Part shown: positions 2,236 to 35,536 of the stretch, piece by piece
How positions within the stretch are numbered: the first letter of the stretch is position 1
Layout: each line of letters begins with the position of its first letter
Source: Treponema ruminis
Lineage (GTDB): Bacteria > Spirochaetota > Spirochaetia > Treponematales > Treponemataceae
Reading direction: 5' to 3'
DNA length: 64,000 nt
Assembly: GCA_017161305.1 (NCBI GenBank)
Contig: CP031518.1
Location: 2,728,001-2,792,000 of the forward strand
Translations under genes and position numbers: made by a program
The notes under the pieces: model-generated
The model's input: the letters and a program-made list of their open reading frames with translations, nothing else
Told to the model about the DNA's origin: nothing
Database searches by the model: none

Positions 2236-2253
2236 CTTTCTCCTTCTATAAAT

Positions 2254-2515: not shown

Positions 2516-2522
2516 CTTGTTT

Positions 2523-3916: not shown

Positions 3917-3944
3917 CCCAAATCAAGACCCCTGAATAACGAAA

Positions 3945-3969: not shown

Positions 3970-3978
3970 CTCGAATTC

Positions 3979-4002: not shown

Positions 4003-4005
4003 ATG

Positions 4006-4140
4006 CCTTCTATGCCTGCATCAACAAGGGCGAGGCGTACTGTCCGGAGGAGATTGCGGACCGGTCCGTGTGCATGGATGGGGATATCGGAGAGGTGCTG
4101 CGGTGTCTGGTTTAGAAAATGGGTCCAGTGGCTTCAAAAC
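4006..4140 (+). pseudogene. Relic A copy 1: 3' end of an unrecognised gene
   Basis: An open stretch ends in CMDGDIGEVLRCLV and a TAG at 4113-4115. It has a diverged second copy at 9179-9305 that keeps the CMDGDI block and the TCTGGTTTAGAAAA end but has lost one base near the stop. Conservation of the reading frame between copies suggests both descend from the 3' end of a coding gene. I do not recognise the protein. Nothing further is seen between 4141 and 4286. Confidence 0.5.
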
Positions 4141-4286
4141 CTAAAACAGGAAGGCGCGTGACCTGAGGCGTACGCAGTATCTTTGGTCCATTTCAAGGAT
4201 CTGCAGCCAGATGGTCAAGGTCGGTATGGGATGGATTGTAGGAGTCTTGCCAGCCGATGTTTCCGTTCAGGGAATCTGTCTCACCG

Positions 4287-5369
4287 TCAGCGGGAGACAG
4301 CATCCATGATTCTTGATACGGCATACAGCGGCAAATTGACCATCCAGGTTTCCTTCCGGAACGACGACATGGATACCCTGACCGGACGTGAGTCGGGATA
4401 CTGTCCGGCAAATTGTCTTAAGGATTTAGCCTGAAGGTTCTCTTCCGCCTTCACCTCCACAGGGACGAGATGTTCCTCTGTCTGGAGGAGAAAATCGATT
4501 TCAGCCTGCGAGTTTTCGGCAGAGTAATAGAAAATGCCATTGGAGATATATTTCTGCAGTTGCTGGAACACGTACTGTTCGGAAAAACTTCCCTTGAATT
4601 CGGAGAACATGTTCCTTGGGGAAACCAGTTGCGAGATAGGGGCATCCACCATGGCGCCCATCAGTCCCAGGTCCGAGAGAAACAGCTTGAACGCGCTGAA
4701 ATCCTCATAGTATTTCAATGGTATTCCTGCCTTCCTTACTCGTGGAATTTTCGCGATCATCCCTGCGTCAATAAGCCATTGTATGGCAAGCTCGAAGTCT
4801 TTTGCCCGTGCTCCTTTCTGGATGTCTCCATATAGGAATTTCCTGTTTTGCTTGACGAGTTGTTGCGGGATTGAATTCGAGACCTGATGGATGCGCCCCG
4901 GTATTTCTTTTGGTGCATGTTTTGAGATGTCCAGAGCATAATCGGCAATGATGGTTTTCTGGATTGCGCGGATAGCGGACGGAAGACGGTTGTCCACATA
5001 GGCCTGCACTGCTTCCGGCATGCCTCCGGTGTCGATTTCGTCATGCATTTCCACGGAAAGGAGGTAGAAGGGCAAGGGAATGCGAATCCAATTGGATGTT
5101 TCTCGAAAAAGGAGCCATTCTCTCTCTTGGAAGATACCCGTCTCTGTTCTTCGGCTCCCCATCGCCTTTCTTATCGGAATGAGCATGCCATGACGGACTA
5201 TTTCACCATGGATACGGGGAACTCTGTGTATCTGGCGACAGGAAAAGACAACCCGACGGATAAGTCTTGCCCATTCTTCATCGAGCGGAGTAGAAGGGAG
5301 TATTCCATTTTCGTGCATGTGCTTGCCTGTGGGAAGGAAAAGTCTCCCGTGGACGACGTACTCTGGCAT
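4287..5369 (-). pseudogene. AAA/DUF4143-type ATPase, degenerate (C-terminal half recognisable)
   Basis: From about residue 120 (GGMPEAVQAYVDN) to the end (ETWMVNLPLYAVSRIMD) this matches the C-terminal DUF4143 domain of AAA_14 ATPases, including the PVEVKAEENLQAKSL nuclease-like strand. A complete family member is about 400 residues and starts with a Walker A ATPase domain. Here the first 110 residues are not that domain and contain no P-loop, so the gene is probably a relic joined to unrelated sequence. A separate 43-residue N-terminal piece of a similar ATPase lies at 9324-9455 on the other strand. The family has no settled function. Confidence 0.6.
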
Positions 5370-21056: not shown

Positions 21057-21086
21057 ATGGTCGGTCTCGAGAAAGGGAGGAGAAGC

Positions 21087-22250
21087 ATGAAAAAGGTAGT
21101 GGTCGCTGGTTCGCTTGTGCTGGACATTGAGCCGATTCCTGTCCCTGGCGGGGATTTCTCTTTTCTGCCGGGACGGAAGACAGGCGTTTCTTCCATTGTC
21201 TTCAATCTTGGCGGTGTCGTGGGCAACACCGGCGTGGCTCTCGCGCGGCTCGGCATGCCGACTTTCCTGCTGGGCAAGGTGGGTGAGGACGTCGGGGGAC
21301 GAATCGTCAGCGATTTGCTCGGTCGGCTGAATGTCCCGAATAGGCTGGAAAAGGTCTCCACGCTTCCGACGTCCACTTCGATTGTCCTGCCCGGACCGAA
21401 CGGGGAGCGGATGATTCTCCAAAGCAAAGGAGCCGGACAATCCTTCATTCCCGAAGACATAGCTCCTCAGCTGCTTTCTGGTGTTTCCCTGCTCCATTTT
21501 GGCAATCCGCCATCGATGAGGACGCTGTGGAGCGAGCGTGGAAAGGGGTTGGTGAAACTGCTGGGCAAAGTGAGGGACTGCGACGTCGCGACCAGTCTCG
21601 GCATCTGCATGCCGGATATTGAGGGCGAGGCTGGCAAACAGAACTGGAAGGCGATTCTTGCCAGGAGCTTGCCGTTGGTCGACCTGTTCCTCCCCGACAT
21701 CGAGGATCTGCTTTTCATGCTGGAGAGACCACTTTTCGACCGGCTGCGACAGGAAGCAAGTGCCATTGACGCCTTGGATCTTCCCTTGATTCCCATTCTG
21801 GCGGACGAGCTTATCGCCATGGGAACAGGCGTGGTCTGCATCAAGATCGGCAAATACGGCCTCTATCTTCGTACCGCGGGGAAAGAGCGGATTTCCCGTA
21901 TCCGCAGCCTGTTCGACACACCCAGCATGGTCTCGGCATGGAGCGATCAGTCGCTCTGGATTCCGCCCTGTCATGTGCCGCATATCGTCTCGACCAAAGG
22001 GGCGAGGGATACCGCCACTGCCGGGTTCCTTGCCGCAGTATTGAGCGGGCATGGACCGATGGAAGCGCTCGTGCTTGCATCCCAGACTGCCGCCCGGTGC
22101 CTCATGGGGGTGGATGCCACGAGCAATATTCCCAGCCTGTCCGAACTGGAAAAGGAACAATCGGTGCGCTTCGAGCATTTCGCCATCGCTTCCGGCTGGC
22201 GGAAGCAAGGGTTTGTCTATTTCCGGGAGACGGAAGAGGGAAAAGCCTAG
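21087..22250 (+). CDS. PfkB-family carbohydrate kinase
   Basis: This 387-residue ribokinase-like sugar kinase transfers phosphate from ATP to a sugar or sugar acid. N-terminal VVVAGSLVLDIEPIPVPGGD and the GGVVGNTGVALARLG box mark the substrate lid and binding region. The catalytic loop is the variant STKGARDTATAGFLAA, where the Asp of the normal GAGD motif is kept but Gly is Arg. The start at 21087 has GGGAGGAG directly upstream. The GntR neighbour suggests hexuronate, KDG or similar substrates. At 387 residues it is longer than most PfkB kinases (about 310), with an extra C-terminal helical part. Confidence 0.9.
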   Translation: MKKVVVAGSLVLDIEPIPVPGGDFSFLPGRKTGVSSIVFNLGGVVGNTGVALARLGMPTFLLGKVGEDVGGRIVSDLLGRLNVPNRLEKVSTLPTSTSIVLPGPNGERMILQSKGAGQSFIPEDIAPQLLSGVSLLHFGNPPSMRTLWSERGKGLVKLLGKVRDCDVATSLGICMPDIEGEAGKQNWKAILARSLPLVDLFLPDIEDLLFMLERPLFDRLRQEASAIDALDLPLIPILADELIAMGTGVVCIKIGKYGLYLRTAGKERISRIRSLFDTPSMVSAWSDQSLWIPPCHVPHIVSTKGARDTATAGFLAAVLSGHGPMEALVLASQTAARCLMGVDATSNIPSLSELEKEQSVRFEHFAIASGWRKQGFVYFRETEEGKA

Positions 22251-22917: not shown

Positions 22918-23358
22918 ATGTTGCAGGAAGGTTCTCAGGCACCACAGTTCAGGTTGCCTGACCAGGAAGGAAACGTCCATAGCTTGGACGAATACCGGGG
23001 GCAGAAGGTCATCCTCTATTTCTACCCGAAGGATATGACATCGGGATGCACCAAGCAGGCCTGCGGCTTTGCCGAGCGCTATCCCCAGTTCAGGGAGAAG
23101 GGCGCTGTCATCCTCGGGGTAAGCAAGGACAGCATCGCTTCCCACAAGAAGTTCGGGGAGAAATACCATCTGCCGTTCACGTTGCTGGCAGACCCGGAAA
23201 TGCAGGCGCACAAGGCCTATGACGTGCTGGAGGTGAAAGAGGGAAAAGCCAAAACCATCCGCACGACCTACCTGATTGATGAGAAGGGAACCATCGTCAA
23301 GGCGATGGGAAAGGTGAAGGCGGCAGAAAATCCGGGAGAGCTGCTTGCCTTGGTGTGA
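22918..23358 (+). CDS. bcp: Thioredoxin-dependent thiol peroxidase (Bcp/PrxQ)
   Basis: This 146-residue peroxiredoxin of the Bcp/PrxQ class reduces H2O2 and organic hydroperoxides with thioredoxin. The peroxidatic Cys and resolving Cys lie five apart in TSGCTKQACGF, the atypical 2-Cys pattern of PrxQ. The ILYFYPKDMT strand and TTYLIDEKGTI strand fit the family and the length is normal. ATG 22918 has GAAGGAG ten bases upstream; a GTG at 22909 is too close to that site. In an anaerobic spirochaete it would protect against transient oxygen. Confidence 0.95.
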   Translation: MLQEGSQAPQFRLPDQEGNVHSLDEYRGQKVILYFYPKDMTSGCTKQACGFAERYPQFREKGAVILGVSKDSIASHKKFGEKYHLPFTLLADPEMQAHKAYDVLEVKEGKAKTIRTTYLIDEKGTIVKAMGKVKAAENPGELLALV

Positions 23359-23754
23359 TGTCCCAAGGAGATGTGGAGTAAATTGATTGGATTGCGGTGG
23401 TATCATTACTGACGAGAATCGAGTATTAGGTTTGTCTCCATATATTGACCGGATAATTTGGTTGCCTTAGTGGACTGATCAGTGAGCGACAGAAATTGGG
23501 TATTACCTGTCTTGGCTGAATGGGGTATTGGCATTTTCTGTTTGAATTCTGGCTAACTGTTAATCTTATTTCGGCCAAGAATGACATCGTATTAGTAGCC
23601 CAGAGAAGATATCCTGTTTGTACAGATCCATGAGAAATTCGGGAGAGAGCCATTCTATTTCCTGGCAGATATTTCAGTTGTTAGATAAGCAGAATTTGTC
23701 TATTGATTTTATTCTATATATGGAAATAATTTTTTATTTTTGAAAGAATTTCGC
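23359..23754. other. AT-rich intergenic stretch, no gene seen
   Basis: No convincing coding frame, RNA or repeat is visible. Base composition changes sharply to AT-rich here and stays so to about 33.7 kb, so this may contain the left junction of the acquired catabolic island. Confidence 0.5.
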
Positions 23755-23783
23755 TTTACTGCACTAGTTATCTAGTATATAAT
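23755..23783 (+). promoter_or_regulatory. Promoter with internal palindrome before dehydratase operon
   Basis: TTTACT (23755-23760), a 17-bp spacer and TATAAT (23778-23783) form a promoter 28 bp before the IlvD-like gene. ACTAG-TTAT-CTAGT at 23763-23776 fills the spacer, a position where a repressor would block polymerase. The IclR regulator encoded in the cluster is the obvious candidate. Confidence 0.6.
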
Positions 23784-23811
23784 TCCATTTAAGGATAATA
23801 AAATTTCAAAT

Positions 23812-25509
23812 ATGGAATTAAATTCGCAGAACTTTCTATATAAGTCAGAGAAATACCGAAGTTCGGCTATCGTGAACGGTGTCACAATGGCTGGACCACG
23901 TGCCCACCTGAGAAATATTGGACTAGCCACGGAGGACATGGCAAAGCCGTTTATCGGAGTTGTCAACACGTACAACGAGATGCATCCAGGTCATTTCCAT
24001 CTCGATAAACTTGGAGAATTGGTAAAGGCAGGTGTCTGGCAGGCTGGTGGTATTCCATTTGAGACTAATACCATCTCAATTTGCGATGGCTACTCCCAAG
24101 GAAATGACGGAATGTGTTCTGTCTTGCCTAGTCGGGAAATCATTGCTGATTCCATCGAGGTATTTGCGAAAGCTCAGAAGTTTGATGGCCTTGTTCTCAT
24201 AGGAGGATGCGATAAAATTGTGCCAGCCTTGATTATGGCCGCTCTTCGCGTGAATCTTCCCACTGTGATTCTCACAGGAGGACCGATGCTTCCTGCCTTT
24301 TACCACGGCAACCAGTATGCAACCTATGAACTCAAAGAGATGACCGGTAAGGTCTTGCGTGGGGAAATCAGTCAAGCTGAGTACGAGCGTATGGAAGGGG
24401 ACTTCTCTCCAACACCTGGTTCGTGCGCCATGATGGGGACGGCGAATACGATGTCGATTATCGCTGAGGCTCTTGGTCTGACCGTGCCGGGGTGTTCCAC
24501 GGCTCTTGCTGTTTCTGGAAGGAAACGGCGGGCAGCAAAGCTCTCCGGCATCACTGTCATGAAAGCTGTCGAACAAAACATAAAACCGCGAGATATCGTT
24601 ACTCAGGGGATGCTCGAGGATGCAATGCGTGTTGGATTGGCTATCTGTGGTTCGTCCAACATGAGTCTTCACATGCCGGCCATCGCCCACGAGGCAGGCC
24701 TCAATCTTTCCCTCAAGATGATTAACGAGCTTTCTTCCACTACTCCAACCATCGTGAAGACAAAACCATCGGGTAAATATACTTTGTTTGATCTTGACAT
24801 GGCTGGAGGTTGTGGCGCGGTGCTCAAACATCTCGATGGATTAATCAACCTTGATCGCATGACCATCAATGGCAAGACGCACAGGGAGAATATAAAGGGC
24901 ATTACCGAAATCGACGAGAATGTCATCCATACAATGGACCATCCATATAGTCCGTGCGGTTCGCTTGTTGTGCTTTCGGGATCCCTTGCACCGGACGGGT
25001 GTATCGTCAAGCAGACAGCAGTCAGTGAAAACATGAGAAAGCATACTGGTCCTGCCCATTGTTTTGATAGTGAAGAAGAATGTGTCGAGGCAATTTTACA
25101 TGGAAAAATCAAGAAAGGCGAGGTGCTTGTCGTTCGCTACGAGGGCCCGAAGGGGGGGCCAGGGATGCGAGAGATGCTCACTGCGACAGCGGCTCTCGTT
25201 GCCATGGGCTATGGCGAGAGTGTTGCTCTAGTGACCGATGGAAGGTTTTCGGGGGCAACCCGTGGACCTTGTATTGGACATATCTCACCAGAGGCGGTTT
25301 GCGGTGGACCAATTGCTGCAGTGCATGACGGAGATTTGATTTCCATTGATATTACAACCCGGAAGATAGACCTTTTGATTGATCCAAAAGAGCTTGCTAT
25401 GCGCCTTACTCACCTTGATTGTGTTTTGAAAACGAAAAAGGCAGAAGGCTATCTTGCTCGCTATAGAAAAAATGTGTCATCGGCTGCCCATGGTGCCGTG
25501 TTGGAATAG
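23812..25509 (+). CDS. IlvD/Edd-family dehydratase (dihydroxy-acid or sugar-acid dehydratase)
   Basis: This 565-residue Fe-S dehydratase of the IlvD/Edd family removes water from 2,3-dihydroxy or aldonic acids to give 2-keto(-3-deoxy) acids. The cluster-ligand cysteines are seen in [10 protein letters not shown], in [13 protein letters not shown] and in the EA-region preceding [11 protein letters not shown]-terminal [19 protein letters not shown] is the substrate-binding loop. It starts the catabolic operon with the aldolase 9 bp downstream, so a sugar-acid substrate is more likely than branched-chain amino-acid synthesis. No other valine or isoleucine gene is nearby. ATG 23812 lies 28 bp after TATAAT, in the AT-rich part of the window. 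Confidence 0.92.
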
Positions 25510-25518
25510 GAGAATACT

Positions 25519-26403
25519 ATGAGTGCATATTTGGAAGGAATCATCGTACCTCTTCTGGTTCCTGGAAAGCTTGATGGATCATTCGATGAACAATTGTTTG
25601 CCGCACATGTTGATTTTCTTGCTACATCGGGTGTGAAAGGGTTATTTGTTGGTGGTACGACAGGTGAATTCGTCAACTATACCGACGACCAACGCCGAAG
25701 AATGCTTGAGATTGTTGTGCGGCATGCCAACGGATTGCATATTCTCTATAACATCACATCAATGTGCAGGGAAGAAATGTGCCGGCATATCAGACATGCC
25801 CAAAAACTCGGGGTTTCTTGCGTTTCCGTTACAGCTCCATACTACCATAAGTACGATAAAAAGTCCTTGGTTGCATATTTCAAGCAAGTAGGGACGCTTG
25901 CCGATGGATTGAATCTCTTTGCGTACAACATGCCGGGCATGACAGGTAACCCACTTACCCCAGATATGGTGGGTGCAATATGCGAGGCAGCTCCTAACCT
26001 GAAAGGAATCAAGGACAGTAGCATGAACTTTACCACTTTGCAGGAATTCTTGCTCGCTGCTCCTTCCGGTTTTGAAGTCGTAACAGGCAACGATGCTGAA
26101 ATCATGGCATCAGCAGAGGTTGGCTGTAAGGGGGCCATTGTGGCGATGGCCAATGTCTATCCTGCATTATGTGTCGGGATTTTTAAGTGCCTGGCTGAAG
26201 GAGACAAAGAACAGGCGTGGAATTATCAAAAGAGGATTATCAAATTGCGCTTTGCCTGTCGTTCCACGATGCCAGTCATGTCCCACAAGTATTTGCTGGA
26301 GTTGCAAGGTAGGCGCATGGGGATAGCCCACTTTCCGATGCGAGAGTTGACGGAGAACGAAAAGGAAACGCTCCGAGCTGCGGCAACGGAATATGGAATG
26401 TAA
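25519..26403 (+). CDS. Dihydrodipicolinate synthase-family aldolase (DapA/NanA/KDG-aldolase type)
   Basis: This 294-residue class I aldolase has GTTGEFVNYT (pyruvate-carboxylate binding), the Tyr in NLFAYNMPGMTG and the Schiff-base Lys in LKGIKDSS. The family cleaves 2-keto-3-deoxy acids to pyruvate plus an aldehyde, or does related condensations. A position directly after an IlvD/Edd dehydratase and before a carboxylate transporter argues for a catabolic 2-keto-3-deoxy-acid aldolase rather than lysine synthesis. AGGAG precedes its ATG. The specific substrate is not shown by the sequence. Confidence 0.92.
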   Translation: MSAYLEGIIVPLLVPGKLDGSFDEQLFAAHVDFLATSGVKGLFVGGTTGEFVNYTDDQRRRMLEIVVRHANGLHILYNITSMCREEMCRHIRHAQKLGVSCVSVTAPYYHKYDKKSLVAYFKQVGTLADGLNLFAYNMPGMTGNPLTPDMVGAICEAAPNLKGIKDSSMNFTTLQEFLLAAPSGFEVVTGNDAEIMASAEVGCKGAIVAMANVYPALCVGIFKCLAEGDKEQAWNYQKRIIKLRFACRSTMPVMSHKYLLELQGRRMGIAHFPMRELTENEKETLRAAATEYGM

Positions 26404-26462
26404 ATTCCAAATCAAGTAGCGACGCTTAATACGTTATTACGCCAATGAACAGGAGGAACAAA

Positions 26463-27464
26463 ATGAAAAAAGCATTGGGCATTTTATCGGTTCTGTTATT
26501 AAGCACTGCGCTCTTCGCGCAAGGGGGAAACGAAGGAGGTGGAAGTGTTTCCTCATCGGGAAGCAACTGGCCCAAGGAAGTCGTGACAATTATCTGCCCG
26601 TCAGTTGCAGGGGGTGGTACGGATGCCACAATTCGTGCGTTTTCCGACACTTGGGGAAATGCGATTGGCCAGAACGTGGTCGTGACCAACTACAAGGCAA
26701 CTCCGGTTGCTATGCAGGCTTGTGCGGATGCCAAACCGGATGGGTACACGGTTGTTTGTCATCAGAATACCGCAATATGCCAATATGTGACAGGAACGCT
26801 CGCAATCAATCCAATAAAAGATTTGGCCTTGGTTGCTGCGCTCCCATACATGGGAGAACAGGCATTGATTGTTCCTGCAAATGCCCCATTTAACACCTTT
26901 ACTGAATTCGTTGACTATGCAAAAGAAAATCCTGGCAAGTGTTCTGTGGCTATTGCAACTGGAGGTCCTGCCCAATTTCTGTGGGGTACCGTGATGCGTG
27001 ATTGCGGAGTCCAGCTCAAGACTGTAGTTGCGGCCAATACCACCGATAAACTCACTAATATTGCTGGTGGTTTCATCGATTGTGGCCAGGTCGATGTGGC
27101 CAATGCCGAGTCTTACGAAAAAGCTGGCAAGGTCAAAGTCATCGGTGTGCTCAGTTCAACGGGCAAGGATCTCGAGGGTTGGCCTGCCCATTGGCACACT
27201 TTGCAAGTACAGGGTTACAATATCGGCTGGGATATGCGTCTCTATATGTGGGCACCTGCCAAGACCGATGAAGCGACTCTGAAAGCCATGAACTCCTCGC
27301 TGAAAGCAGTCATGGAAGACGAAGGAGTCAAGGCGACGCTGAAGAAGATGGGGGCCCGTGCCGAATGGTATGACCTAGAAGAAAGCCGCAAGATTCTACA
27401 AAACGAGTATGACAGCATTCTTGCTACGGGCAAGGATCTCGGAATCGCAGCTTCTGGACGGTAA
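26463..27464 (+). CDS. tctC: TctC-family (Bug) periplasmic solute-binding protein
   Basis: This 333-residue extracytoplasmic receptor belongs to the tripartite tricarboxylate transporter (TTT) family. Signal peptide KKALGILSVLLLSTALFA is followed by a Gly/Ser linker and the Bug fold: PKEVVTIICPSVAGGGTDAT, then PDGYTVVCHQN and PFNTFTEFVDYAKENPGK. The ATG at 26463 follows AGGAGGAACAAA. TTT receptors bind carboxylates such as citrate, aromatic acids or sugar acids. It is followed by TctB and TctA genes, giving a complete transporter that probably feeds the enzymes around it. Confidence 0.95.
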   Translation: MKKALGILSVLLLSTALFAQGGNEGGGSVSSSGSNWPKEVVTIICPSVAGGGTDATIRAFSDTWGNAIGQNVVVTNYKATPVAMQACADAKPDGYTVVCHQNTAICQYVTGTLAINPIKDLALVAALPYMGEQALIVPANAPFNTFTEFVDYAKENPGKCSVAIATGGPAQFLWGTVMRDCGVQLKTVVAANTTDKLTNIAGGFIDCGQVDVANAESYEKAGKVKVIGVLSSTGKDLEGWPAHWHTLQVQGYNIGWDMRLYMWAPAKTDEATLKAMNSSLKAVMEDEGVKATLKKMGARAEWYDLEESRKILQNEYDSILATGKDLGIAASGR

Positions 27465-27488
27465 TTGGATTTAATTGGAAGGAGATGT

Positions 27489-27995
27489 ATGTCCTGTCTG
27501 GGCATACATCCCGATTTCAAGGGGAACGTCATGAAAGTGAAATACGACAAACTATTCGCTGCTGTGTGCCTGATTTCCGTCATCGTGCTTTTTATAAGCA
27601 CGCGGCAGATTCGTGACCTAGCGAGCGAAAGTGATCCTGGGGCCAGAGTCTTTCCGTATATCGGCGAGACTCTACTTGCCATCTGTTCGATTCTCGTGCT
27701 GTCCAGTAAGGATGATGGTACGGAATCTTGGCTCAATAAAGAAAGCGGCAGGCGCCTTCTGATTGTTTTCGGTTGTTCGATTCTCTATGCCATCTCCATT
27801 GTCTGGCTTGGATATCTCGTCAGTACTTTTTTTTGTGTCATCGGGTTCATCTACCTGCTCAGAGGAGAAAACAGGGTCAAACCGATTGTCGTGGTGGTTA
27901 TGACCATTGTTCTTGCCGTTGGACTTTATCTGTTGTTCACGAAAGGCTTCTCCATCATGTTGCCTAAAGGCAAATTGTTCAATGGAGGGTATTGA
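27489..27995 (+). CDS. tctB: TctB-family small membrane subunit
   Basis: This protein of about 168 residues has four hydrophobic helices (LFAAVCLISVIVLFIS, YIGETLLAICSILVL, LIVFGCSILYAIS, VVVVMTIVLAVGLYLLF), the DUF1468/TctB pattern. It assists the large TctA subunit. The start could be ATG 27489 (GGAAGGAG just upstream) or ATG 27531 (AAGGGG upstream). The first is chosen for its better ribosome site, though its first 14 residues are not membrane-like. It ends just before tctA. Confidence 0.88.
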   Translation: MSCLGIHPDFKGNVMKVKYDKLFAAVCLISVIVLFISTRQIRDLASESDPGARVFPYIGETLLAICSILVLSSKDDGTESWLNKESGRRLLIVFGCSILYAISIVWLGYLVSTFFCVIGFIYLLRGENRVKPIVVVVMTIVLAVGLYLLFTKGFSIMLPKGKLFNGGY

Positions 27996-27997
27996 TC

Positions 27998-29509
27998 ATG
28001 TCAAACTACCTTGCTGCATTGTTGTTGTGTTTCCAGCCGGCAAATTTCATATTGCTTCTGCTCTGTGTCCTTGCAGGAATTATTTTCGGAGCGATTCCGG
28101 GACTAAACGGAAGTCTCGGCATTTCATTGCTTTTGCCTTTGACGTTTGGTATGTCGACCAATGCCTCGTTCGGAATGCTTTGCGGTATGTATGTTGGTGG
28201 CGTGTCTGGTGGTTTTATCTCCGCTGTGTTGCTTGGCATTCCCGGCACACCATCGGCGATTGCAACCTGCTATGACGGATACCCGATGAGTAAAAGGGGA
28301 GAGGCGGCACGCGCGCTTTCCTTGGGCATCATTGGATCTTTTATCGGCGAGGTTTTTTCGGTCGCCATAGCAAGTTGCATGTGTACCTTCATTGCTGACT
28401 TGGCATTGAAACTTGGTCCGTGGGAGTATTTTAGCCTTTGTGCTTGTGCCATCACGCTTGTTGCCGCACTGTCAAAGGAAAATATGGCAAAAGGTATGAT
28501 GGCCGCTGCGATTGGCCTCTTGATTGGCTGCATCGGGCTCGATCCTATTACCGGGGTACCCCGATTTACCTTTGGAGAGAAGAATCTGACCGGTGGTATC
28601 GACATTACGGCTCTGATGCTTGGAGCATATGCGCTCTCTCAAATTGCGAAAAGCTATGCCCGTGGTTCCCAGAAATTACCGGACGTCAAGGTCGATATTA
28701 CAGGCAATGGTCTCATTGCCAGTGATTTTACCAGCAATATCGTTACCATTGTGAAGGCGCTCATGGTTGGTCTCTGGATTGGTTTTCTCCCGGGAATGGG
28801 TTCTGCTCTCTCTAATATGGTCTCCTATTCGTTCTGTAAATCGACCAGCAAACACCCAGAGCGGTTCGGAACAGGTTGCCCAGAAGGTATTCTGGCTTCC
28901 GAAGTTTCGAACAATGCAGCCACAGGGGGAGCACTGATCCCGATGATTTCCCTCGGTATTCCAGGTGACGGAGCAACCTCTCTCCTTCTTGGTGCGCTGA
29001 CCATTCATGGACTGACTGCCGGTCCGCTCATGATGCAACAGCATCCTGTTACAAGCTACCTGTTCTTTGCCTACATGCTTGTCGGTGCTTTTATTGTCCT
29101 GGCAGTCGAGATGCTAGCCAAACGCTGGTTCCCCTATATCCTGAAAATTCCTTACCACTACTTGTATACGGCAATATTGGTGATGTGCTATGTTGGCTCT
29201 TTCACCTCGACCAATACCATGTTCAATGTGCGTGTGATGATTGTTATCGCCGTACTTGCATTGTTCATGGACGTTGCACGGGTGCCGATGAGTCCGCTCA
29301 TCCTCGCCTATATTCTGAGCAGTAGTCTTGAGGAATATTTACGTAAAGGGATGACGTATTCTCCAGAAGGTGCCGTGACCTTTGTGAAGCGGCCACTCTC
29401 TTTGCTCTTCCTTCTGATTGCCCTCGGGTGTGTCATCGCTCCGGTGATTCTTCCGTTGATTCGGAAGGATAAAGGAAAGGTGGCAAATGGTTCCAAGTTG
29501 GAAGACTAA
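27998..29509 (+). CDS. tctA: TctA-family large permease subunit
   Basis: This 503-residue polytopic permease, about 11-12 helices, is the transport channel of the TTT system. Family landmarks are AGIIFGAIPGLNGSLGISLL, GIPGTPSAIATCYDGYPM and, in the second repeat, LPGMGSALSNMVSYSFCKS and LGIPGDGATSLLLGAL. The glycine-rich GxPG loops face the substrate. ATG 27998 has GGAGGG nine bases upstream; a TTG at 27992 is less likely. With TctC and TctB it imports a carboxylate, probably driven by an ion gradient. Confidence 0.95.
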   Translation: MSNYLAALLLCFQPANFILLLLCVLAGIIFGAIPGLNGSLGISLLLPLTFGMSTNASFGMLCGMYVGGVSGGFISAVLLGIPGTPSAIATCYDGYPMSKRGEAARALSLGIIGSFIGEVFSVAIASCMCTFIADLALKLGPWEYFSLCACAITLVAALSKENMAKGMMAAAIGLLIGCIGLDPITGVPRFTFGEKNLTGGIDITALMLGAYALSQIAKSYARGSQKLPDVKVDITGNGLIASDFTSNIVTIVKALMVGLWIGFLPGMGSALSNMVSYSFCKSTSKHPERFGTGCPEGILASEVSNNAATGGALIPMISLGIPGDGATSLLLGALTIHGLTAGPLMMQQHPVTSYLFFAYMLVGAFIVLAVEMLAKRWFPYILKIPYHYLYTAILVMCYVGSFTSTNTMFNVRVMIVIAVLALFMDVARVPMSPLILAYILSSSLEEYLRKGMTYSPEGAVTFVKRPLSLLFLLIALGCVIAPVILPLIRKDKGKVANGSKLED

Positions 29510-29617
29510 TCACCCCGAACTGGACGACGAAAGAGACGTAGGTGTTTATGAGAGACTTCTAGAACAATTGACTTTTCGCTTTTTGCCCCTCAAGAATTGC
29601 AAAAGGAGTTGCATATC

Positions 29618-30397
29618 ATGAACGTCGACCAACAGAAAGAAATTCAAGCGAAATTGTTGTGTTATTCGAGCCTGAAAGCTATCCAGATTCTCAGTGCCAT
29701 GGCGTTTCGCAAAAAGGAATGTGGAATTAATGACATCGGGCAACTCACCAGTCTTCCGGCCAGTACAATCCATCGCGTTCTTCAGGAACTGGTTGAATGT
29801 GGATTAGTTGTAAAGGTTCGGACCAAATATCGGGTTGGAACAATGGCGAAAGTCCTGTTCCAACTCTTCGATGATGACGATTATGTTCTCGATGCTGCTT
29901 CCTTGGAGATGACGCGCCTTAATGATTTAACCTGCGAGACGGTTCACCTGATTGCACTGGAGAACACAGATGCGGTTTATATCGCCAAGCGCGAGGCGAA
30001 GAACCAGATTGGTTTGCGTTCGGTGGTTGGCAAGCATATTCCGCTCTATTGCACGAGTGGTGGCAAACTTCTTCTCGCTTTTCAGAACGAAAAGTGGATT
30101 GATTTTTATCTTGAAACAGTTCCTAGGGCAAAATTGACCGACCACACGATTGTCGGCAAGGACGAATTGCTCAAGGAACTGGAGAAAGTTAGAAAACAGG
30201 GATATGCAGTCGACCGCAGTGAACACAATCCAGAAGTTGTCTGTGTTGCGGCCCCTATTTTCTATCCGAGCGGTCAGATTGCCTGTACGATTGGTGTAGC
30301 AACACCGAAATATCGTATTACCGAGGAGAAACTCGAGCAATTCCTCCAAGAAGTACTTGTTAGCGCCAAGCGAATTACCGAGAAACTCGCTCAGTAA
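29618..30397 (+). CDS. IclR-family transcriptional regulator
   Basis: This 259-residue regulator has an N-terminal winged helix (DIGQLTSLPASTIHRVLQEL, GLVVKVRTKYRVG) and the IclR effector domain (DLTCETVHLIALENTDAVYI, VGKHIPLYCTSGGKLLLAF, CVAAPIFYPSGQIACTIGV). It sits inside the island between transporter and D-amino-acid-type enzymes, so it probably controls both and senses a pathway acid. ATG 29618 follows AAAAGGAG. Its target may be the palindrome in the promoter at 23763-23776, but this is inferred. Confidence 0.93.
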   Translation: MNVDQQKEIQAKLLCYSSLKAIQILSAMAFRKKECGINDIGQLTSLPASTIHRVLQELVECGLVVKVRTKYRVGTMAKVLFQLFDDDDYVLDAASLEMTRLNDLTCETVHLIALENTDAVYIAKREAKNQIGLRSVVGKHIPLYCTSGGKLLLAFQNEKWIDFYLETVPRAKLTDHTIVGKDELLKELEKVRKQGYAVDRSEHNPEVVCVAAPIFYPSGQIACTIGVATPKYRITEEKLEQFLQEVLVSAKRITEKLAQ

Positions 30398-30478
30398 ATG
30401 GCATGAGAAACAATAGCCAAAATGGTCAAAACCTACAGGGTTTTGATATGCTTCATCACAAATAAAAGGAAGTTTATT

Positions 30479-30940
30479 ATGAAGATAAGTGAAAAGTTGA
30501 AAGAAATGGGAATCATGCTCCCGTCGAAGAAACCTGGTGGTGTCTATAAACCAGTCGTACAAGTTGGCAGGGAACTCTATGTCTCAGGGCAAGGATGTGC
30601 CGTTGGTGGTAAGCCAGCTTTCCAAGGGAAAGTTGGAGCCGAGTGTACACTGGAAGACGGCAAAACTGCAGCGAGAATTTGTGCAATCAATGCGCTCGGT
30701 GCGCTTGCCGATTATCTAGGCGACATCGATAAGGTTGATTGCATTGTAAAAACACTGGCTTTCGTGAACAGCACACCGGACTTCAGTCAGCAACATCTCG
30801 TTGCCAATGGCTGCTCGGAATTCCTTCGTGACCTGTTCGGGGAAGAGAAGGGGGTTGGTGCTCGTTCAGCGATTGGCGTGGCACAGCTTCCTGGCAATAT
30901 TCCCGTTGAAATCGAGTTTGTTTTCGAGGCGAAGGTGTGA
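30479..30940 (+). CDS. RidA/YjgF-family enamine/imine deaminase
   Basis: This 153-residue Rid-family protein forms trimers that hydrolyse reactive 2-aminoacrylate-type enamines released by PLP dehydratases. Seen are VQVGRELYVSGQGCAVGGK, the NALGALADYLGDIDKVDCIV helix and the C-terminal ARSAIGVAQLPGNIPVEIEF with the active-site Arg. It lies 3 bp before a PLP enzyme gene of the D-serine-dehydratase/D-threonine-aldolase fold, so the two probably act in sequence. The ATG at 30479 has AAGGAAG upstream. Confidence 0.92.
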   Translation: MKISEKLKEMGIMLPSKKPGGVYKPVVQVGRELYVSGQGCAVGGKPAFQGKVGAECTLEDGKTAARICAINALGALADYLGDIDKVDCIVKTLAFVNSTPDFSQQHLVANGCSEFLRDLFGEEKGVGARSAIGVAQLPGNIPVEIEFVFEAKV

Positions 30941-30943
30941 GCG

Positions 30944-32053
30944 ATGGACCTGTATGACTTCAAGGGGGAAGAGTCGGTAAGAAGTCCTCAGTTGGTCTAC
31001 CATGTTGATTTGATTCGGCACAATACCCGACATCTGGTGGAAATGGCTGGTTCGACCAAGCGTCTATTTCCCCATGTGAAGTCGCACAAAATTCGGGAAA
31101 TGGTACGCATGCAGATTGAAGAAGGGATTCATAACTTCAAGTGCTCTGTGCTTTCTGAATTGCAAATGGTGGCAATGGAGGGAGGGGAGCGTGCGTTGCT
31201 TGCCTATCCGTTAGTCGGACCAGCCGTGGACGATTATTTGACGCTTTGTACTAGGTATCCCCAGACGGAGCTCCTCTCAACGGTCGATGATGTTGGAGCT
31301 GCGATGGTTCTTTCGTCGAAAGCATTGGCAAAAGGGATTCGGGCGGCGGTTCTGATTGATGTCGATCCAGGAATGCATCGTACCGGTCGTTCTTATGAAG
31401 AGGTGCCGATATTTGCACAAAAGATTGTGGAACTCAAAGGTCTTGAGCTCAAGGGCCTTCATTGCTATGACGGTTTTTATAGTGTTCCATCACTGGAAGA
31501 AAGAAAAAAGAATGCTCGCGCTTTGATTGTCCGAATCAACAGCCTGAAAAGCAATCTTCTATCTTCAGGTATGGACATGTCGCTTGTTGTGGTAGGGGGG
31601 AGCGGGACTTTTCCGATTTATGCAACGGAGAGCGATTTCCTTCTTTCGCCTGGGACCCTTTTCATCAATGACTGGGGTTATGAATCGAAATTTCCTGATC
31701 TTGACTTTACGCCTGCAGGGGAAGTGTTGGCTCGGGTTGTGAGTTGTCCTGATGATGGGTACTTCACAATCGATTTGGGTACCAAGGCTATTGGAGCAGG
31801 GAAAAACGGCGTTTCTGGTCGAATTTCAGGTATGAGCCATATCGAGTCCGTCTTCCAGAATGAGGAGCATTGGGTGTTCCGTATGGAGAAAGGTCATGAG
31901 AACGAACGGCCAATGGTGGGGACGGTTGTCCATGTTGTGCCGTGGCATATCTGTCCGACAACGAATCTTTATCCGTATGTCCTTACCGTCGAGGATAGGC
32001 GAATTACCGGTTCTTGGGATGTCTATGCCCGGTTTCGGGGTATTAGAGCGTAA
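30944..32053 (+). CDS. D-TA family PLP enzyme (D-threonine aldolase / D-serine dehydratase-like)
   Basis: This 369-residue fold-type III PLP enzyme has an alanine-racemase-like barrel. LFPHVKSHK near residue 46 is the PLP-lysine motif, VLIDVDPGMHRTG is the barrel strand with substrate contacts, and the C-terminal VVPWHICPTTN near residue 340 gives the His-x-Cys metal pair of D-serine dehydratase-like members. The family acts on D-configured beta-hydroxy amino acids: aldol cleavage, or dehydration to a keto acid and ammonia. The RidA gene upstream supports a dehydratase mode. Here the amino acid would come from the deacylase downstream. Confidence 0.9.
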   Translation: MDLYDFKGEESVRSPQLVYHVDLIRHNTRHLVEMAGSTKRLFPHVKSHKIREMVRMQIEEGIHNFKCSVLSELQMVAMEGGERALLAYPLVGPAVDDYLTLCTRYPQTELLSTVDDVGAAMVLSSKALAKGIRAAVLIDVDPGMHRTGRSYEEVPIFAQKIVELKGLELKGLHCYDGFYSVPSLEERKKNARALIVRINSLKSNLLSSGMDMSLVVVGGSGTFPIYATESDFLLSPGTLFINDWGYESKFPDLDFTPAGEVLARVVSCPDDGYFTIDLGTKAIGAGKNGVSGRISGMSHIESVFQNEEHWVFRMEKGHENERPMVGTVVHVVPWHICPTTNLYPYVLTVEDRRITGSWDVYARFRGIRA

Positions 32054-32071
32054 TTGCAAAGGAAGACAAAC

Positions 32072-33676
32072 ATGCGTATTGCAATCAAAAATGGGACAAT
32101 AGTTGATGGGACGGGAAAGCCTGCATATCGTGGGGATCTTCTTATCGATGGAGGCCTTATTTGTCAGGCCGGAGGAACAGTTTCTGGAAAAGTCGATGAA
32201 ACCGTTGATGCTACTGGTCTGCTCGTGACTCCCGGTTTCATTGACATCCATCGCCATTGTGATATCCAGCCTCTCATCAATCCTCGATTTGGGGAAATAG
32301 AGGGACGACAGGGCATCACGACGGTGGTTGCTGGTAATTGCGGGTTGGCCAATGTACCGTTTACAGAGCAATCTGGTGATGATGTACTTGCCTTGGTTCG
32401 TCCTTGCCTTGGTCCGGTTACGAGGAGGACAACATTTCCAAGTTATCAAGCCTATATAGAAGCGCTCTCGAAAGGTGGACTTAGCCTCGAATTTGGATTC
32501 CTTGCTGGTACCGGTGCAATCAAGTCGGCTGTCAAAGGTTTTTCCAAAGAGCCTTTTTCTGAACAAGAGCTGAAGCGCGCAGTTGCTTTTATGCACGAGG
32601 CGATGGATTCTGGAGCTCTTGGTGCATCGATGGGAATCATGTATCCTCCCGAGCGTTATAACTGTATCGATGACTATGTTGCCTTACTTCGCCCTGTAGC
32701 CGAAGCTGGTCGGATTGTCTCTTGCCACATGCGTGGCGAAAGTGACAGCCTTGTCTCTTCTGTTGCAGAAGCCATTGAGATTGCTAGGAGGACTGGCGTA
32801 CGATTCAACATCAGCCACTTCAAATCGAATGGCAAACGCAATTGGCGCAAGAAAATATTTGAAGCGGTTTCTTTGATTGATCAGGCAAGAACCAATGGAA
32901 TCATCATGACTTGTGATTTCTATCCCTATGCAGGAGGAAGCACGACGCTTCAGTCTCTGATTCCTCCGGACTGTTTTATGGAGAATACCGAAGCCACATG
33001 TACGTTCCTTGCGTCAAAGAAAGGAGTTGAACGTCTTCGGGAATCCATTACGCAACGGTTCCCAAAATGGGACAACATGGTTCTTGGCATTGGATGGGAT
33101 AGAGTAATCATTTCCTATATTCCTGTTCCTGAGTATGCATCGCTTGCCGGTATGGATTTCTCAAGAGCTGCAAAAATGACTGGTATGGATGAGGCAATGT
33201 TACTCGCAACCCTGTTTGTAAAGGCACATGGAGATGTTGGCATCGTAATTATGAGTATGGATCCGGAAGATGTGGCTTTTGTCGCTACGCTTCCATATAG
33301 CTCGGTTATTTCCGATTCCTTGTATCCTACAAGCGGGCATCCGCATCCCCGCCTTTATGGGTCGTTTCCGGCATTTCTCCGGACATACGTCTGCGAGAAA
33401 CATTTACTATCGCTTCCCGAGGCAATCGCAAAAATGACCGATATGAATGCTGAGAAGATGGGATTGTCCGATAGAGGTACCCTCGAAGTTGGGAAACGGG
33501 CAGATGTGAATGTGTTTGCCTTGGATGCCTTTCATGACTTGGCAACTTACCGAGACCCCTGCCGCCTTGCCGAAGGGCTTACACTTTCTCTCGTGGGGGG
33601 AGAGGTCGTGGTACGGAACGATGTATGGCAGGAATCCAGAAAAGGTTCTTTGGTTTTGGCGCAAAGCAAGGCGTGA
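32072..33676 (+). CDS. N-acyl-D-amino-acid deacylase (D-aminoacylase family)
   Basis: This 534-residue amidohydrolase shows the metal motif GFIDIHRHCDIQ (residues 56-67), VVAGNCGLANVPF with the conserved metal-bridging Cys, and FNISHFKSNGKRNW. Family members hydrolyse N-acyl-D-amino acids to a carboxylic acid and the D-amino acid. As the last gene of the island it would supply the D-TA family enzyme encoded 18 bp upstream. The ATG at 32072 follows AAAGGAAG. A glucosaminate-type substrate is possible because an N-acetyl-2-amino sugar acid is chemically an N-acyl-D-amino acid; this is inference. Confidence 0.92.
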   Translation: MRIAIKNGTIVDGTGKPAYRGDLLIDGGLICQAGGTVSGKVDETVDATGLLVTPGFIDIHRHCDIQPLINPRFGEIEGRQGITTVVAGNCGLANVPFTEQSGDDVLALVRPCLGPVTRRTTFPSYQAYIEALSKGGLSLEFGFLAGTGAIKSAVKGFSKEPFSEQELKRAVAFMHEAMDSGALGASMGIMYPPERYNCIDDYVALLRPVAEAGRIVSCHMRGESDSLVSSVAEAIEIARRTGVRFNISHFKSNGKRNWRKKIFEAVSLIDQARTNGIIMTCDFYPYAGGSTTLQSLIPPDCFMENTEATCTFLASKKGVERLRESITQRFPKWDNMVLGIGWDRVIISYIPVPEYASLAGMDFSRAAKMTGMDEAMLLATLFVKAHGDVGIVIMSMDPEDVAFVATLPYSSVISDSLYPTSGHPHPRLYGSFPAFLRTYVCEKHLLSLPEAIAKMTDMNAEKMGLSDRGTLEVGKRADVNVFALDAFHDLATYRDPCRLAEGLTLSLVGGEVVVRNDVWQESRKGSLVLAQSKA

Positions 33677-33699
33677 ATAGCAAATGGATTGATGGTTCT

Positions 33700-33733
33700 T
33701 TGCCCTAGTACCTTTCACAATGAGGTAGGGCAA
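33700..33733. terminator. Inverted repeat after island (possible terminator)
   Basis: TTGCCC and GGGCAA, extended by TACCT/AGGTA with a small bulge, form a stem 24 bp after the deacylase stop. No T-run follows immediately, so its strength as a terminator is doubtful. The rest of 33734-33954 is AT-rich without a gene; TATAAT near 33814 may serve the next gene. Confidence 0.35.
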
Positions 33734-33954
33734 GGATACCATGCTCTATATATTTTTGATACGTTTCCGAGAAATTTTTCCGAATCCTGGCACTCGCACT
33801 AGGGGATGCCTTGAGTTATAATCAAAAGGGGAAGCTCTCTCTGAGAGGAACAAACGTTTGTTTGCCAGGAATTAGGTGAGAAGAATGATGATCCTAGACG
33901 ATTGAATTCCTTCAATTTTACCATGAAAGGCCATGCGCCATGGAGGAGAAACAG

Positions 33955-34137
33955 ATGAGCGAAAAAGAACAAATTCTGGATGTGATGAGAAAGGCTGGCC
34001 AGCCGTTGAATGCAGGCAAGGTCGCTGAACTGACCGGGCTGGACCGGAAGGTCGTGGACAAGACGTTTGCGGAGATGAAGAAAACGGGAGAGATCGTATC
34101 TCCGGTACGGTGCAAATGGGAACCGGCAGTCAAATAA
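33955..34137 (+). CDS. Small winged-helix-like protein
   Basis: This 60-residue protein is almost entirely one helix-turn-helix: ILDVMRKAGQPLNAGKVAEL then LDRKVVDKTFAEMKKTGEIV and a basic wing (PVRCKWEP). It looks like a stand-alone MarR/ArsR-type DNA-binding domain without an effector part. ATG 33955 follows GGAGGAGAAACAG; an ATG 15 bases earlier lacks such spacing. Target and role are unknown. It is monocistronic, 76 bp before a GH28 gene. Confidence 0.75.
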   Translation: MSEKEQILDVMRKAGQPLNAGKVAELTGLDRKVVDKTFAEMKKTGEIVSPVRCKWEPAVK

Positions 34138-34213
34138 GAGGGATTCCTGTGCGAAGACTATCCTTCTCGTGTAAGAGGAACGGGGGCCAGGGCTGACTTC
34201 CCAAGGGTATGCG

Positions 34214-35536
34214 ATGATACACCATATCTCTGTGCAGCAGCCCAGTTTTCCGGACCGTTTTCTTTCCCTTTTGGATCTTGACCATGCCAAGGATGAGTTT
34301 TCTTTCAAGGCGGGGAGAACCAATGGTCGCTCAATCCAGAAGGGAATCGACTCGCTTTCCGCCCAAGGGGGCGGAACGTTGGGCATACCCGCCGGATTCT
34401 GGGCGTGCTCTCCAATCGTCCTGAAGTCGGGTGTACAGCTTCGTCTGGAACGGGGAGCCCTGCTCAAATTCATCAAGCACAAGGAAGATTACCCTCTGGT
34501 TGTTACCGACTATGAAGGCCAGAGCGCCATCCGTACCGTCTCTCCGATTTCCAGCGAGGGCGCGGTCAATATCGCCATCACGGGCGCCGGAATGATTGAC
34601 GGCAGCGGTGATCTTTGGCGCCCTGTCAAGCGGTTCAAGGTCACCGATTCCCAGTGGAACACGCTCCTCGATAAGGGTGGCAAAGTGCTTGCAGGCAAGG
34701 AACTGGTCTGGTTCCCGACCGAGACCAGCTATCTGGGAGCCCTACGGTTGGCGGCCGGGAAAGGGGAGGACGATCTTCAAAGCGCCCAGTCCTCTTGGGA
34801 TTTCTATCGTCCGGTGCTGGTCGATTTGAAGCATTCCAGGCAGGTGTTGCTTCAAGGGGTCACCTTCACCGATTCCCCGGCATGGTGCATCCACACCTAT
34901 TTCTGCGAGGATGTGACCGTTGACGGAATCCAGGTCAAGAATGCTTACTGGGCCCAGAACGGTGACGGGATCGACGTGGAGTCATGCCGGAACGTCGAGA
35001 TCAAGGATAGTGTGTTCGAAACGGGAGACGACGCCATCTGCCTGAAAAGCGGGAAGAACGCCCAAGCCCGGAAAACTCCGGGGCCGTGCGAACTGGTGTG
35101 GATTCATGATTGTACCGTCTTTCGAGGACATGGGGGATTCGTCATCGGGAGCGAGATGTCGCGTGGGGTCAGAGACATTCTTGTCCAGCGCTGCCTTTTC
35201 CTTGCCACTGATGTTGGGGTGCGCGTCAAGAGCGCCCTCGGGCGGGGCGGCGTGGTCGAGGATATCGACATCCAGGATATCCGGATGGTCGGCATCAAGC
35301 ACGAATCCATCATCCTTACCATGGGATATGCGCTGAACTCGATAACCATGGACGAGCAACCCGTCCAGGAGAGCGAGGAGGACATCCCCCTTTTCCGGGA
35401 TATCCACATGGATGGAATGTGTTTCCTTGGCCAACAGGCAAAACTCCGGATTGTCCCGCTACCGGGCAGGGATGATACAATCCAGAGAATCACAGTCAAT
35501 GGTACTCTCTATAATGGGGCGGTACTTGTTGGTTGA
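34214..35536 (+). CDS. Glycoside hydrolase family 28 (polygalacturonase-like)
   Basis: This 440-residue parallel beta-helix enzyme is of the pectinase family. Catalytic and binding motifs are in order: NGDGIDVESC (NxD), TGDDAICLKSG (DD), HGGFVIGSEMS (G-H-G) and VRVKSALGRGG (RxK). N-terminal GRTNGRSIQKGIDSLSAQGG is the usual start of this family. No signal peptide is seen, so it probably acts on imported galacturonic or rhamnogalacturonic oligomers in the cytoplasm. The start has only a weak AAGG site. Downstream are a DUF1304 membrane protein and sugar-metabolism genes. Confidence 0.92.
   Translation: MIHHISVQQPSFPDRFLSLLDLDHAKDEFSFKAGRTNGRSIQKGIDSLSAQGGGTLGIPAGFWACSPIVLKSGVQLRLERGALLKFIKHKEDYPLVVTDYEGQSAIRTVSPISSEGAVNIAITGAGMIDGSGDLWRPVKRFKVTDSQWNTLLDKGGKVLAGKELVWFPTETSYLGALRLAAGKGEDDLQSAQSSWDFYRPVLVDLKHSRQVLLQGVTFTDSPAWCIHTYFCEDVTVDGIQVKNAYWAQNGDGIDVESCRNVEIKDSVFETGDDAICLKSGKNAQARKTPGPCELVWIHDCTVFRGHGGFVIGSEMSRGVRDILVQRCLFLATDVGVRVKSALGRGGVVEDIDIQDIRMVGIKHESIILTMGYALNSITMDEQPVQESEEDIPLFRDIHMDGMCFLGQQAKLRIVPLPGRDDTIQRITVNGTLYNGAVLVG

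Follow-up and report, generated by a model that had tools for sequence, protein, structure and literature searches.

What does a Treponema do with sugar-acid enzymes and D-amino-acid enzymes encoded in a single run of genes? In the 64,000-nucleotide stretch of Treponema ruminis contig CP031518.1 analyzed here (the window), positions 23812-33676 of the forward strand hold nine consecutive same-strand genes. A first-pass annotation had read them as encoding an IlvD/Edd dehydratase, a DapA-type aldolase, a tripartite tricarboxylate transporter (TTT), an IclR regulator, RidA, a pyridoxal 5'-phosphate (PLP) enzyme, and an N-acyl-D-amino-acid deacylase (DAA), and had proposed from these a pathway for N-acylated 2-amino sugar acids. 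All nine open reading frames (ORFs) are confirmed at the positions noted, Pfam and NCBIfam assignments agree with the families named, and TctA, TctB, and TctC occur together, as a TTT requires. On balance we favor a catabolic operon for an N-acylated 2-amino-2-deoxy sugar acid, at somewhat better than an even chance.

23812..25509, +, IlvD/Edd-family dehydratase, second copy in the genome, proposed sugar-acid dehydratase (Pfam ILVD_EDD_N/C; TIGR00110, 665.5 bits)
25519..26403, +, DapA-family class I aldolase, proposed 2-keto-3-deoxy-sugar-acid aldolase (Pfam DHDPS)
26445..27464, +, TctC, solute-binding protein of the TTT importer (Pfam TctC, 96.2 bits)
27465..27995, +, TctB, small membrane subunit of the TTT importer (Pfam TctB, 70.6 bits)
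27992..29509, +, TctA, large membrane subunit of the TTT importer (Pfam TctA, 450 bits)
29597..30397, +, IclR-family regulator (Pfam IclR_C, 161.4 bits, and HTH_IclR)
30479..30940 (ORF from 30422), +, Rid-family imine/enamine deaminase (Pfam YjgF_endoribonc, 45.5 bits; Ribonuc_L-PSP, 39.2 bits)
30944..32053, +, fold-III PLP enzyme of subfamily a, proposed 2-amino-aldonate ammonia-lyase (Pfam Ala_racemase_N and D-ser_dehydrat)
32072..33676 (ORF from 32054), +, N-acyl-D-amino-acid deacylase-like amidohydrolase, DAA (Pfam Amidohydro_3/1; D-aminoacylase matches)

Measured from ORF to ORF, the gaps between successive genes are 9, 41, 0, -4, 87, 24, 3, and 0 bases, the largest lying between TctA and IclR; we prefer the later ATG starts for RidA (30479) and the deacylase (32072), with which two of the gaps become 81 and 18.

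In the proposed pathway, TctCBA would import the carboxylate, the deacylase would strip its acyl group by a Zn/Asp mechanism, the PLP enzyme would remove the C3 hydroxyl and then ammonia from a D-configured 2-amino aldonate, and RidA would clear the resulting enamine/imine. The DapA-type aldolase would then cut 2-keto-3-deoxy-gluconate or -galactonate, without a kinase, to pyruvate and glyceraldehyde, and IlvD would supply non-aminated sugar acid to the same aldolase, as in the annotated yagE-yagF pair of Escherichia coli. We infer each of these reactions in T. ruminis, together with the substrate, its configuration, and acceptance of the product by the aldolase, from features that are observed directly: the gene order, the protein families, the catalytic residues, the HxC class of the PLP enzyme, the conserved company of three enzymes, and the linkage of some relatives to 2-keto-3-deoxy-sugar-acid genes. 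The same chemistry has been demonstrated with other enzymes in Pseudoalteromonas, in the available portion of PMC9537276.

A conserved deacylase, PLP enzyme, and Rid protein

The neighborhood sample comprised the best 80 of at least 527 candidates from a deacylase-profile scan, plus three further loci (L062, L049, and L146), with flanks of up to 10 kb; several loci are short contigs, in which missing neighbors may be artifacts. In a quickly built tree of 81 DAA rows, with support from the Shimodaira-Hasegawa-like approximate likelihood-ratio test (SH-aLRT) only, the T. ruminis DAA falls within a 28-row clade (SH-aLRT 100) that leaves out OngB, the N-acetylglucosaminate (GlcNAc1A) deacetylase of marine Pseudoalteromonas; the nearest row is another Treponema record (L065) at 50% identity. 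Five rows interrupted by a stop within the aligned match were omitted from this tree (L081, L089, L097, L100, and L139), and L081 and L146 were counted among the clade loci although neither is in the tree. The sample divides into 29 loci of the DAA clade and 54 loci with other DAAs.

Of the 29 clade loci, 25 encode RidA and 25 a fold-III PLP enzyme, against 0/54 of the other-DAA loci for each, which supports the first-pass annotation in part. The controls include the sister clade (18 of the 54 loci, all Bacillota), and the contrast is therefore not purely taxonomic. Among 14 further loci from the order, which played no part in query choice, nine have the PLP enzyme, nine have RidA, and eight have both; these are the 18 order-level matches minus the T. 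ruminis genome itself and G048, G386, and G708 (already present as L049, L074, and L087), and they were not placed in the tree; one of them, G666 (34% identity), may fall outside the clade. The PLP partners of the DAA clade belong to three subfamilies (a, b, and c), all with an HxC motif, and one constant deacylase with exchangeable deaminases is the pattern that a three-step chain would be expected to leave. We regard the deacylase, PLP deaminase, and RidA as a well-supported three-enzyme unit.

Other neighbors are less evenly spread. With queries drawn from clade loci, glycoside hydrolase family 9 (GH9) genes are found in 7/29 clade loci, GH2 genes in 4/29, and sodium/solute symporter family (SSF) genes in 7/29, each being present in 0/54 controls, and some spirochete clade loci have glycosidases (GH2 and GH9) together with importers. 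In the first neighbor count, the groups do not differ in M20 hydrolases (3/29 and 5/54), the DgoD family (6/29 and 5/54), or DapA (0/29 and 1/54). In six loci (L062, L066, L067, L071, L081, and L180) the DAA, PLP, and RidA genes lie near a GH9-family enzyme, and four of these also have a GH2-family enzyme (Pfam was checked in L062); neighbors of this kind point to possible release of the substrate from a glycoside. None of the glycosidase-bearing spirochete clade loci seen has 2-keto-3-deoxy genes. The unit also occurs at positions 117-5250 of a 23.9-kb circular Subdoligranulum variabile record (L146, OY725852.1), where the PLP, deacylase, and RidA genes adjoin a serine recombinase with Resolvase and Recombinase domains, which suggests that the unit is mobile.

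Linkage to sugar-acid catabolism

Because the queries of the first neighbor count came partly from clade loci, the count was repeated with E. coli queries only. At least two genes of the 2-keto-3-deoxy-gluconate/galactonate set then occur in 9/29 clade loci and in 0/54 others, as does an aldolase for the 6-phosphates of these two acids (KDPG/KDPGal aldolase, Eda), again in 9/29 and 0/54; restricted to loci of at least 15 kb, the two-gene contrast is 8/23 against 0/33.

Two gene orders account for these loci. In L070, L073, and L075 a metallo-beta-lactamase-fold gene, an M20 hydrolase, DAA, RidA, PLP enzyme, DgoK, and Eda follow one another in that order on a single strand, with a YheO-type regulator gene ahead of DgoK in L073. 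L070 (Lachnospiraceae), the only one of the three checked against Pfam, has a sugar-type ABC importer in front, and its kinase matches PF05035 at 131.8 bits. In L072, L076, L077, L079, L094, and L096 an SSF symporter, DAA, RidA, PLP enzyme, and IlvD/Edd dehydratase share one strand, with a PfkB kinase, Eda, and a galactonate-dehydratase-family gene nearby; the families of this layout were verified in L072 and L079, and Eda exceeds its own cut-off in L072. The deepest branch of PLP subfamily a, L060, lacks this deacylase and reads IclR-PLP-RidA-Eda-PfkB.

From this linkage, the DAA/PLP/RidA module most likely converts N-acyl-2-amino-aldonates to 2-keto-3-deoxy acids, and the reading of the T. 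ruminis operon as one for amino-sugar-acid catabolism is moderately supported. Since the three relatives L070, L073, and L075 carry a gene of the 2-keto-3-deoxy-galactonate kinase family, we predict that the galacto configuration is at least as likely as gluco. The metallo-beta-lactamase-fold gene of L070 could encode a lactonase; beside it in the same DgoK/Eda operon is a 401-residue gene without a Pfam match (L070, 6754-7959).

Catalytic residues of the three enzymes

Sequence and fold searches group the DAA with D-aminoacylases, N-acyl-D-glutamate deacylase, and PpOngB, the GlcNAc1A deacetylase. Its structure model has a predicted local distance difference test score (pLDDT) of 92.5, with 1m7j, 9gv8, 3gip, and PpOngB (9kb1) as the best Foldseek matches. 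Numbered from the ORF start at 32054 and aligned to OngB, the residues C96, H225, H255, K257, Y290, S296, D421, and R433 are all present; C96, H225, H255, and D421 supply the Cys/His/His metal site and catalytic Asp of a subtype V amidohydrolase of the D-aminoacylase kind. The enzyme keeps the metal ligands, the catalytic Asp, and most of the OngB positions that anchor the acetamido and carboxylate groups, with the residue roles taken from the available text of PMC12017989; the position of OngB Leu116 is Cys. OngB Glu226 is kept too, as it is in nearly all aligned rows, and the OngB Gln298 column is unconserved and badly aligned among the clade rows. Outside the clade, a D-aminoacylase of 31% identity on a Cetobacterium somerae plasmid record (L151, 4532-12615) sits within a cluster of diaminopropionate ammonia-lyase, YgeY, SsnA, and guanine deaminase genes, and may represent another function of the wider DAA family.

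The first-pass annotation had placed the PLP enzyme in the D-threonine aldolase (D-TA) family, a product name that NCBI gives to its relatives. Its AlphaFold model (pLDDT 91.2) has 4v15 as the best Foldseek match and D-threonine aldolase as the closest fold. An HxD metal motif marks the aldolases of this fold and HxC the dehydratases, a distinction reflected in the title of a structure entry for a C353A dehydratase. The motif is HIC in the T. ruminis enzyme and HAC in D-serine dehydratase, as against HVD or HCD in 4v15, 7dib, 7yqa, and 6qkb. H335 and C337 are invariant across 22 aligned PLP rows (L082, which has a stop codon, was left out of the PLP tree), and Cys occupies this position in the aligned rows of all three subfamilies and in OngC. 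With its D-ser_dehydrat domain, the enzyme is thus of the D-serine-dehydratase type, and D-threonine aldolase is rejected as its function. We read it as a putative ammonia-lyase because its HxC motif is that of D-serine dehydratase and not HxD. Rid proteins have a catalytic Arg in the AR(S) motif near the C terminus; the island Rid protein keeps it, and it is common to seven aligned Rid rows and OngD.

PLP relatives occur in other settings as well. On a Parabacteroides distasonis plasmid record (L147, 7617-12234) the neighbors of a sister PLP enzyme are RidA, a gluconate:H+ symporter, DUF4833, and a membrane dipeptidase; the PLP-Rid pair may be put to another use there. L056 (7865-13721) combines a PLP enzyme of subfamily a with an M20 hydrolase, next to genes for a lysine-type DapA, a semialdehyde dehydrogenase, and a decarboxylase resembling LysA, and no RidA match was found in that locus.

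The aldolase and the IlvD/Edd dehydratase

The first-pass annotation had also proposed a direct, non-phosphorylated split of the 2-keto-3-deoxy acid. The aldolase retains the Lys of the GIK motif and has Met where E. coli DapA has Arg138, its motif being YNMPGMTG against YNVPSRTG in DapA; E. coli YagE has YNFPALTG, with Leu in that column. Arg138 (E. coli numbering) of dihydrodipicolinate synthase (DHDPS, DapA proper) has a role with aspartate semialdehyde, and the Arg is present in a DapA encoded within a lysine gene cluster. DHDPS is accordingly rejected as the identity of the aldolase, and since the enzyme lacks the DHDPS arginine a direct split is plausible. None of the curated aldolase models is reached, with Arch_KDGaldase at 132 bits against a cut-off of 390. 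The PfkB-family gene upstream at 21057-22250 is rejected as a 2-keto-3-deoxygluconate (KDG) kinase, scoring 19.4 bits against a model cut-off of 400.

A second IlvD elsewhere in the genome scores 759.7 bits to TIGR00110, and the two copies are 45% identical. IlvC is also encoded elsewhere. A biosynthetic role for the island copy is less likely because the better-scoring IlvD and IlvC lie outside the island, and the other copy probably fills the biosynthetic dihydroxyacid dehydratase (DHAD) role; that copy does not adjoin ilv genes, the three neighbors tested being a GGDEF/FIST protein, an ATP-grasp protein, and an S41 peptidase.

Evidence against an amino-sugar-acid pathway, and two alternatives

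Several results weigh against the pathway we favor, beginning with the substrate. The residues by which OngB reads the sugar hydroxyls are mostly changed in the T. ruminis DAA, with S292 replaced by T297, S290 by G295, and A193 by M196; the Ser292 column is Thr in 28/28 clade rows, and an S292T OngB retains 1.3% of kcat/Km, according to the available text of PMC12017989. The Ser292 and Gln298 signature of OngB is thus absent, and N-acetylglucosaminate, the example given in the first-pass annotation, is no more than a candidate substrate. The nine loci with 2-keto-3-deoxy genes all lie inside one 10-row subclade of the DAA tree; the counts are therefore not independent, the P values are too strong, and one or two events are represented rather than nine. 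One gene of the 2-keto-3-deoxy set occurs in 5/54 control loci (four of the galactonate-dehydratase family and one of the DapA family), the galactonate-dehydratase family by itself does not separate the groups (6/29 against 4/54, P=0.09), and 2-keto-3-deoxy genes are found in 0/14 of the order-level loci.

In a first alternative, DAA, PLP enzyme, and RidA would degrade ordinary beta-hydroxy N-acyl-D-amino acids (N-acyl-D-serine, N-acyl-D-threonine, or a hydroxy-D-aspartate) and the sugar-acid genes would serve otherwise. The solved relatives of the DAA are mostly D-aminoacylases, which share Thr at the OngB Ser292 position, and the PLP relatives with structures are D-threonine aldolases, D-serine dehydratase, and hydroxyaspartate enzymes. 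The Parabacteroides sister PLP enzyme keeps its company of RidA, symporter, and dipeptidase without sugar-acid dehydratases or aldolases, the IclR protein is almost as near BhcR (137.5 bits) as KdgR (140.7 bits), its best NCBIfam matches and both under cut-off, and OngC too deaminates D-serine and D-threonine, in the portion of PMC9537276 available. Simple amino acids would, however, leave unexplained the GH9, GH2, and SSF genes seen in clade loci and in none of the controls, as well as the three loci where the PLP gene is followed by a gene of the 2-keto-3-deoxy-galactonate kinase family and Eda; for simple D-serine an aldolase would be superfluous. We consider this alternative unlikely, yet the most serious of those weighed here.

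The remaining difficulties concern the first genes of the island. IlvD exceeds the DHAD cut-off of TIGR00110 (618 bits), Eda is also encoded in the genome, so that a direct split is not forced, and both the DapA-type aldolase and TctA occur in 0/29 clade loci. Homologous loci do pair the unit with a dehydratase and an aldolase, as the first-pass annotation required, but in the six SSF-type loci these are IlvD/Edd and a KDPG-type aldolase. The expectation is thus borne out in part, and the claim of a kinase-free split, for which the replaced arginine argues, concerns this island alone.

A second alternative would divide the operon into two unrelated units: IlvD-DapA-TctCBA (perhaps with IclR) would handle a plain sugar acid, for example a pentonate, and RidA-PLP-DAA would carry out D-amino-acid chemistry. 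The 87-base gap between TctA and IclR falls near such a boundary, the IlvD-DapA pair alone resembles yagF-yagE, and the absence of the DapA family and TctA from the clade loci would follow. All nine genes nevertheless share one strand and a similar G+C content at third codon positions (GC3), and six clade loci join the three-enzyme set to IlvD/Edd and a KDPG-type aldolase; we regard two separate units as improbable, and less probable than an ordinary D-amino-acid substrate.

Comparison with known systems

The closest functional parallel to the amino-sugar-acid pathway is the marine ong system, for which a locus with the ong gene order on a Pseudoalteromonas megaplasmid (L148) served as the reference. 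In the available portion of PMC9537276, OngB, OngC, and KdgK of Pseudoalteromonas convert GlcNAc1A to KDG-6-phosphate, OngD is needed for growth on GlcNAc1A, and the complete pathway is reported from Gammaproteobacteria and one betaproteobacterium. As in the P. prydzensis system described there, a deacylase of D-aminoacylase fold, a fold-III PLP deaminase, and a Rid protein would act serially to give a 2-keto-3-deoxy sugar acid. The island DAA also resembles PpOngB (9kb1; PMC12017989, available text) in fold, Cys/His/His metal site, Asp, and carboxylate anchors, although it is ~50 residues longer, is changed at the Ser290, Ser292, and Ala193 positions, and belongs to a separate clade.

This parallel raises a third possibility, that a GlcNAc1A pathway of the ong type reached T. 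ruminis by transfer from a marine gammaproteobacterium. The reaction order of deacylase, deaminase, and RidA is identical, and OngC distantly finds other subfamily-a PLP relatives at ~26% (L056: 26%, E 4e-14). The island DAA, however, is 29% identical to OngB (measured against that of P. shioyasakiensis), neither the island PLP enzyme and OngC nor the island Rid protein and OngD match by BLAST at 1e-2 (L148 locus), and the DAA and PLP enzymes form separate clades, with OngB outside that of the island. A TTT importer replaces the SSS symporter of ong and IclR replaces RpiR; a DapA-type aldolase and IlvD stand in place of the KDG kinase, with no kinase and no GH20 among the nine genes; and the related loci are in Spirochaetota and Bacillota. 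Lytic polysaccharide monooxygenase (LPMO, PF03067) gave no match in the genome, which is 81% complete, and a supply fed by LPMO within this genome is rejected on that basis, with the same completeness in view. Orthology to ong is likewise rejected, neither orthologues of OngB, OngC, and OngD nor a KDG kinase having been found in the cluster, and transfer of an ong-type pathway is highly improbable. Judged by sequence, common descent of the two sets is refuted and shared chemistry is not, so that the island is predicted to function like ong without being a member of it.

Two enteric systems share parts of the scheme. In E. coli yagE-yagF, annotated as KDG aldolase and D-xylonate dehydratase, a DapA-family aldolase adjoins an IlvD/Edd-family dehydratase as in the island; unlike that pair, the island IlvD scores best with DHAD models, and yagEF has no amino-sugar-acid genes alongside in the E. 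coli stretch examined. In the D-glucosaminate pathway of Salmonella (dga; PMC9529869, available portion) a PLP enzyme deaminates an amino-sugar acid and an aldolase follows, as proposed here, but import is by the phosphotransferase system with phosphorylation first, the PLP enzyme is of the aminotransferase family, and the aldolase acts on KDG-6-phosphate. The literature on galactosaminate and N-acetyl-hexosaminic acid yielded unrelated papers, and a broader search led to the two ong papers, an Aeromonas chitin paper (PMC11653859), and PMC9529869 on glucosaminate-6-phosphate lyase but to nothing that we recognized as this unit, a weak negative since most subscription journals lie outside the search.

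We tentatively suggest, at somewhat short of even confidence, that Bacillota and Spirochaetota, many of them gut derived according to their record titles, harbor an undescribed and widespread N-acyl-2-amino-aldonate pathway, probably also for galacto substrates, built independently of marine ong out of a separate clade of deacylases and PLP deaminases of at least three alternative kinds; the version in this Treponema would end in a kinase-free aldol split, with the aldolase shared with a plain sugar-acid dehydratase. If so, oxidized amino sugars would supply carbon and nitrogen to anaerobes, in which LPMO chemistry, being dependent on oxygen, is unexpected, and the D-amino-acid route to 2-keto-3-deoxy acids would have arisen more than once. 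It would also give a concrete function to deacylases and PLP enzymes now named merely 'D-aminoacylase' and 'D-TA family', and raise the question of what the source of N-acyl-aldonates is in these habitats.

Genomic context of the island

The genome is 2.9 Mb in one contig. PLP enzymes of the island kind (E <= 1e-50) are encoded in 4/200 genomes of the genus, T. ruminis included, the other three at 44% identity; the deacylase (E <= 1e-100) is found in 18/390 genomes of the order, again including its own; and among 296 genomes of the phylum the aldolase (E <= 1e-60) is found in T. ruminis only. Because relatives of these three proteins are so rare, the nine-gene island was probably acquired by transfer. 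GC3 is alike from gene to gene (0.43-0.54, mean 0.495) and compares with 0.644 (standard deviation 0.078) for 37 mechanically chosen window ORFs, not all of them real genes; GC is even lower in the first 4 kb of the window (0.435 and 0.453), which counts against taking GC3 as proof of transfer.

Upstream of the first gene there is one promoter-like site, on weak evidence:

23755..23783, +, sigma-70-like site, TTTACT-17-TATAAT (10/12), ending 28 bases short of the first start codon

A promoter and terminator scan of the island region did no better than shuffles, with 10 sigma-70-like sites in 23200-34300 against a shuffle mean of 13.4. Downstream of the island and on the same strand, a GH28-family gene lies at 34214-35536; its GC3 of 0.67 is that of the rest of the window, and it is therefore probably outside the island unit.

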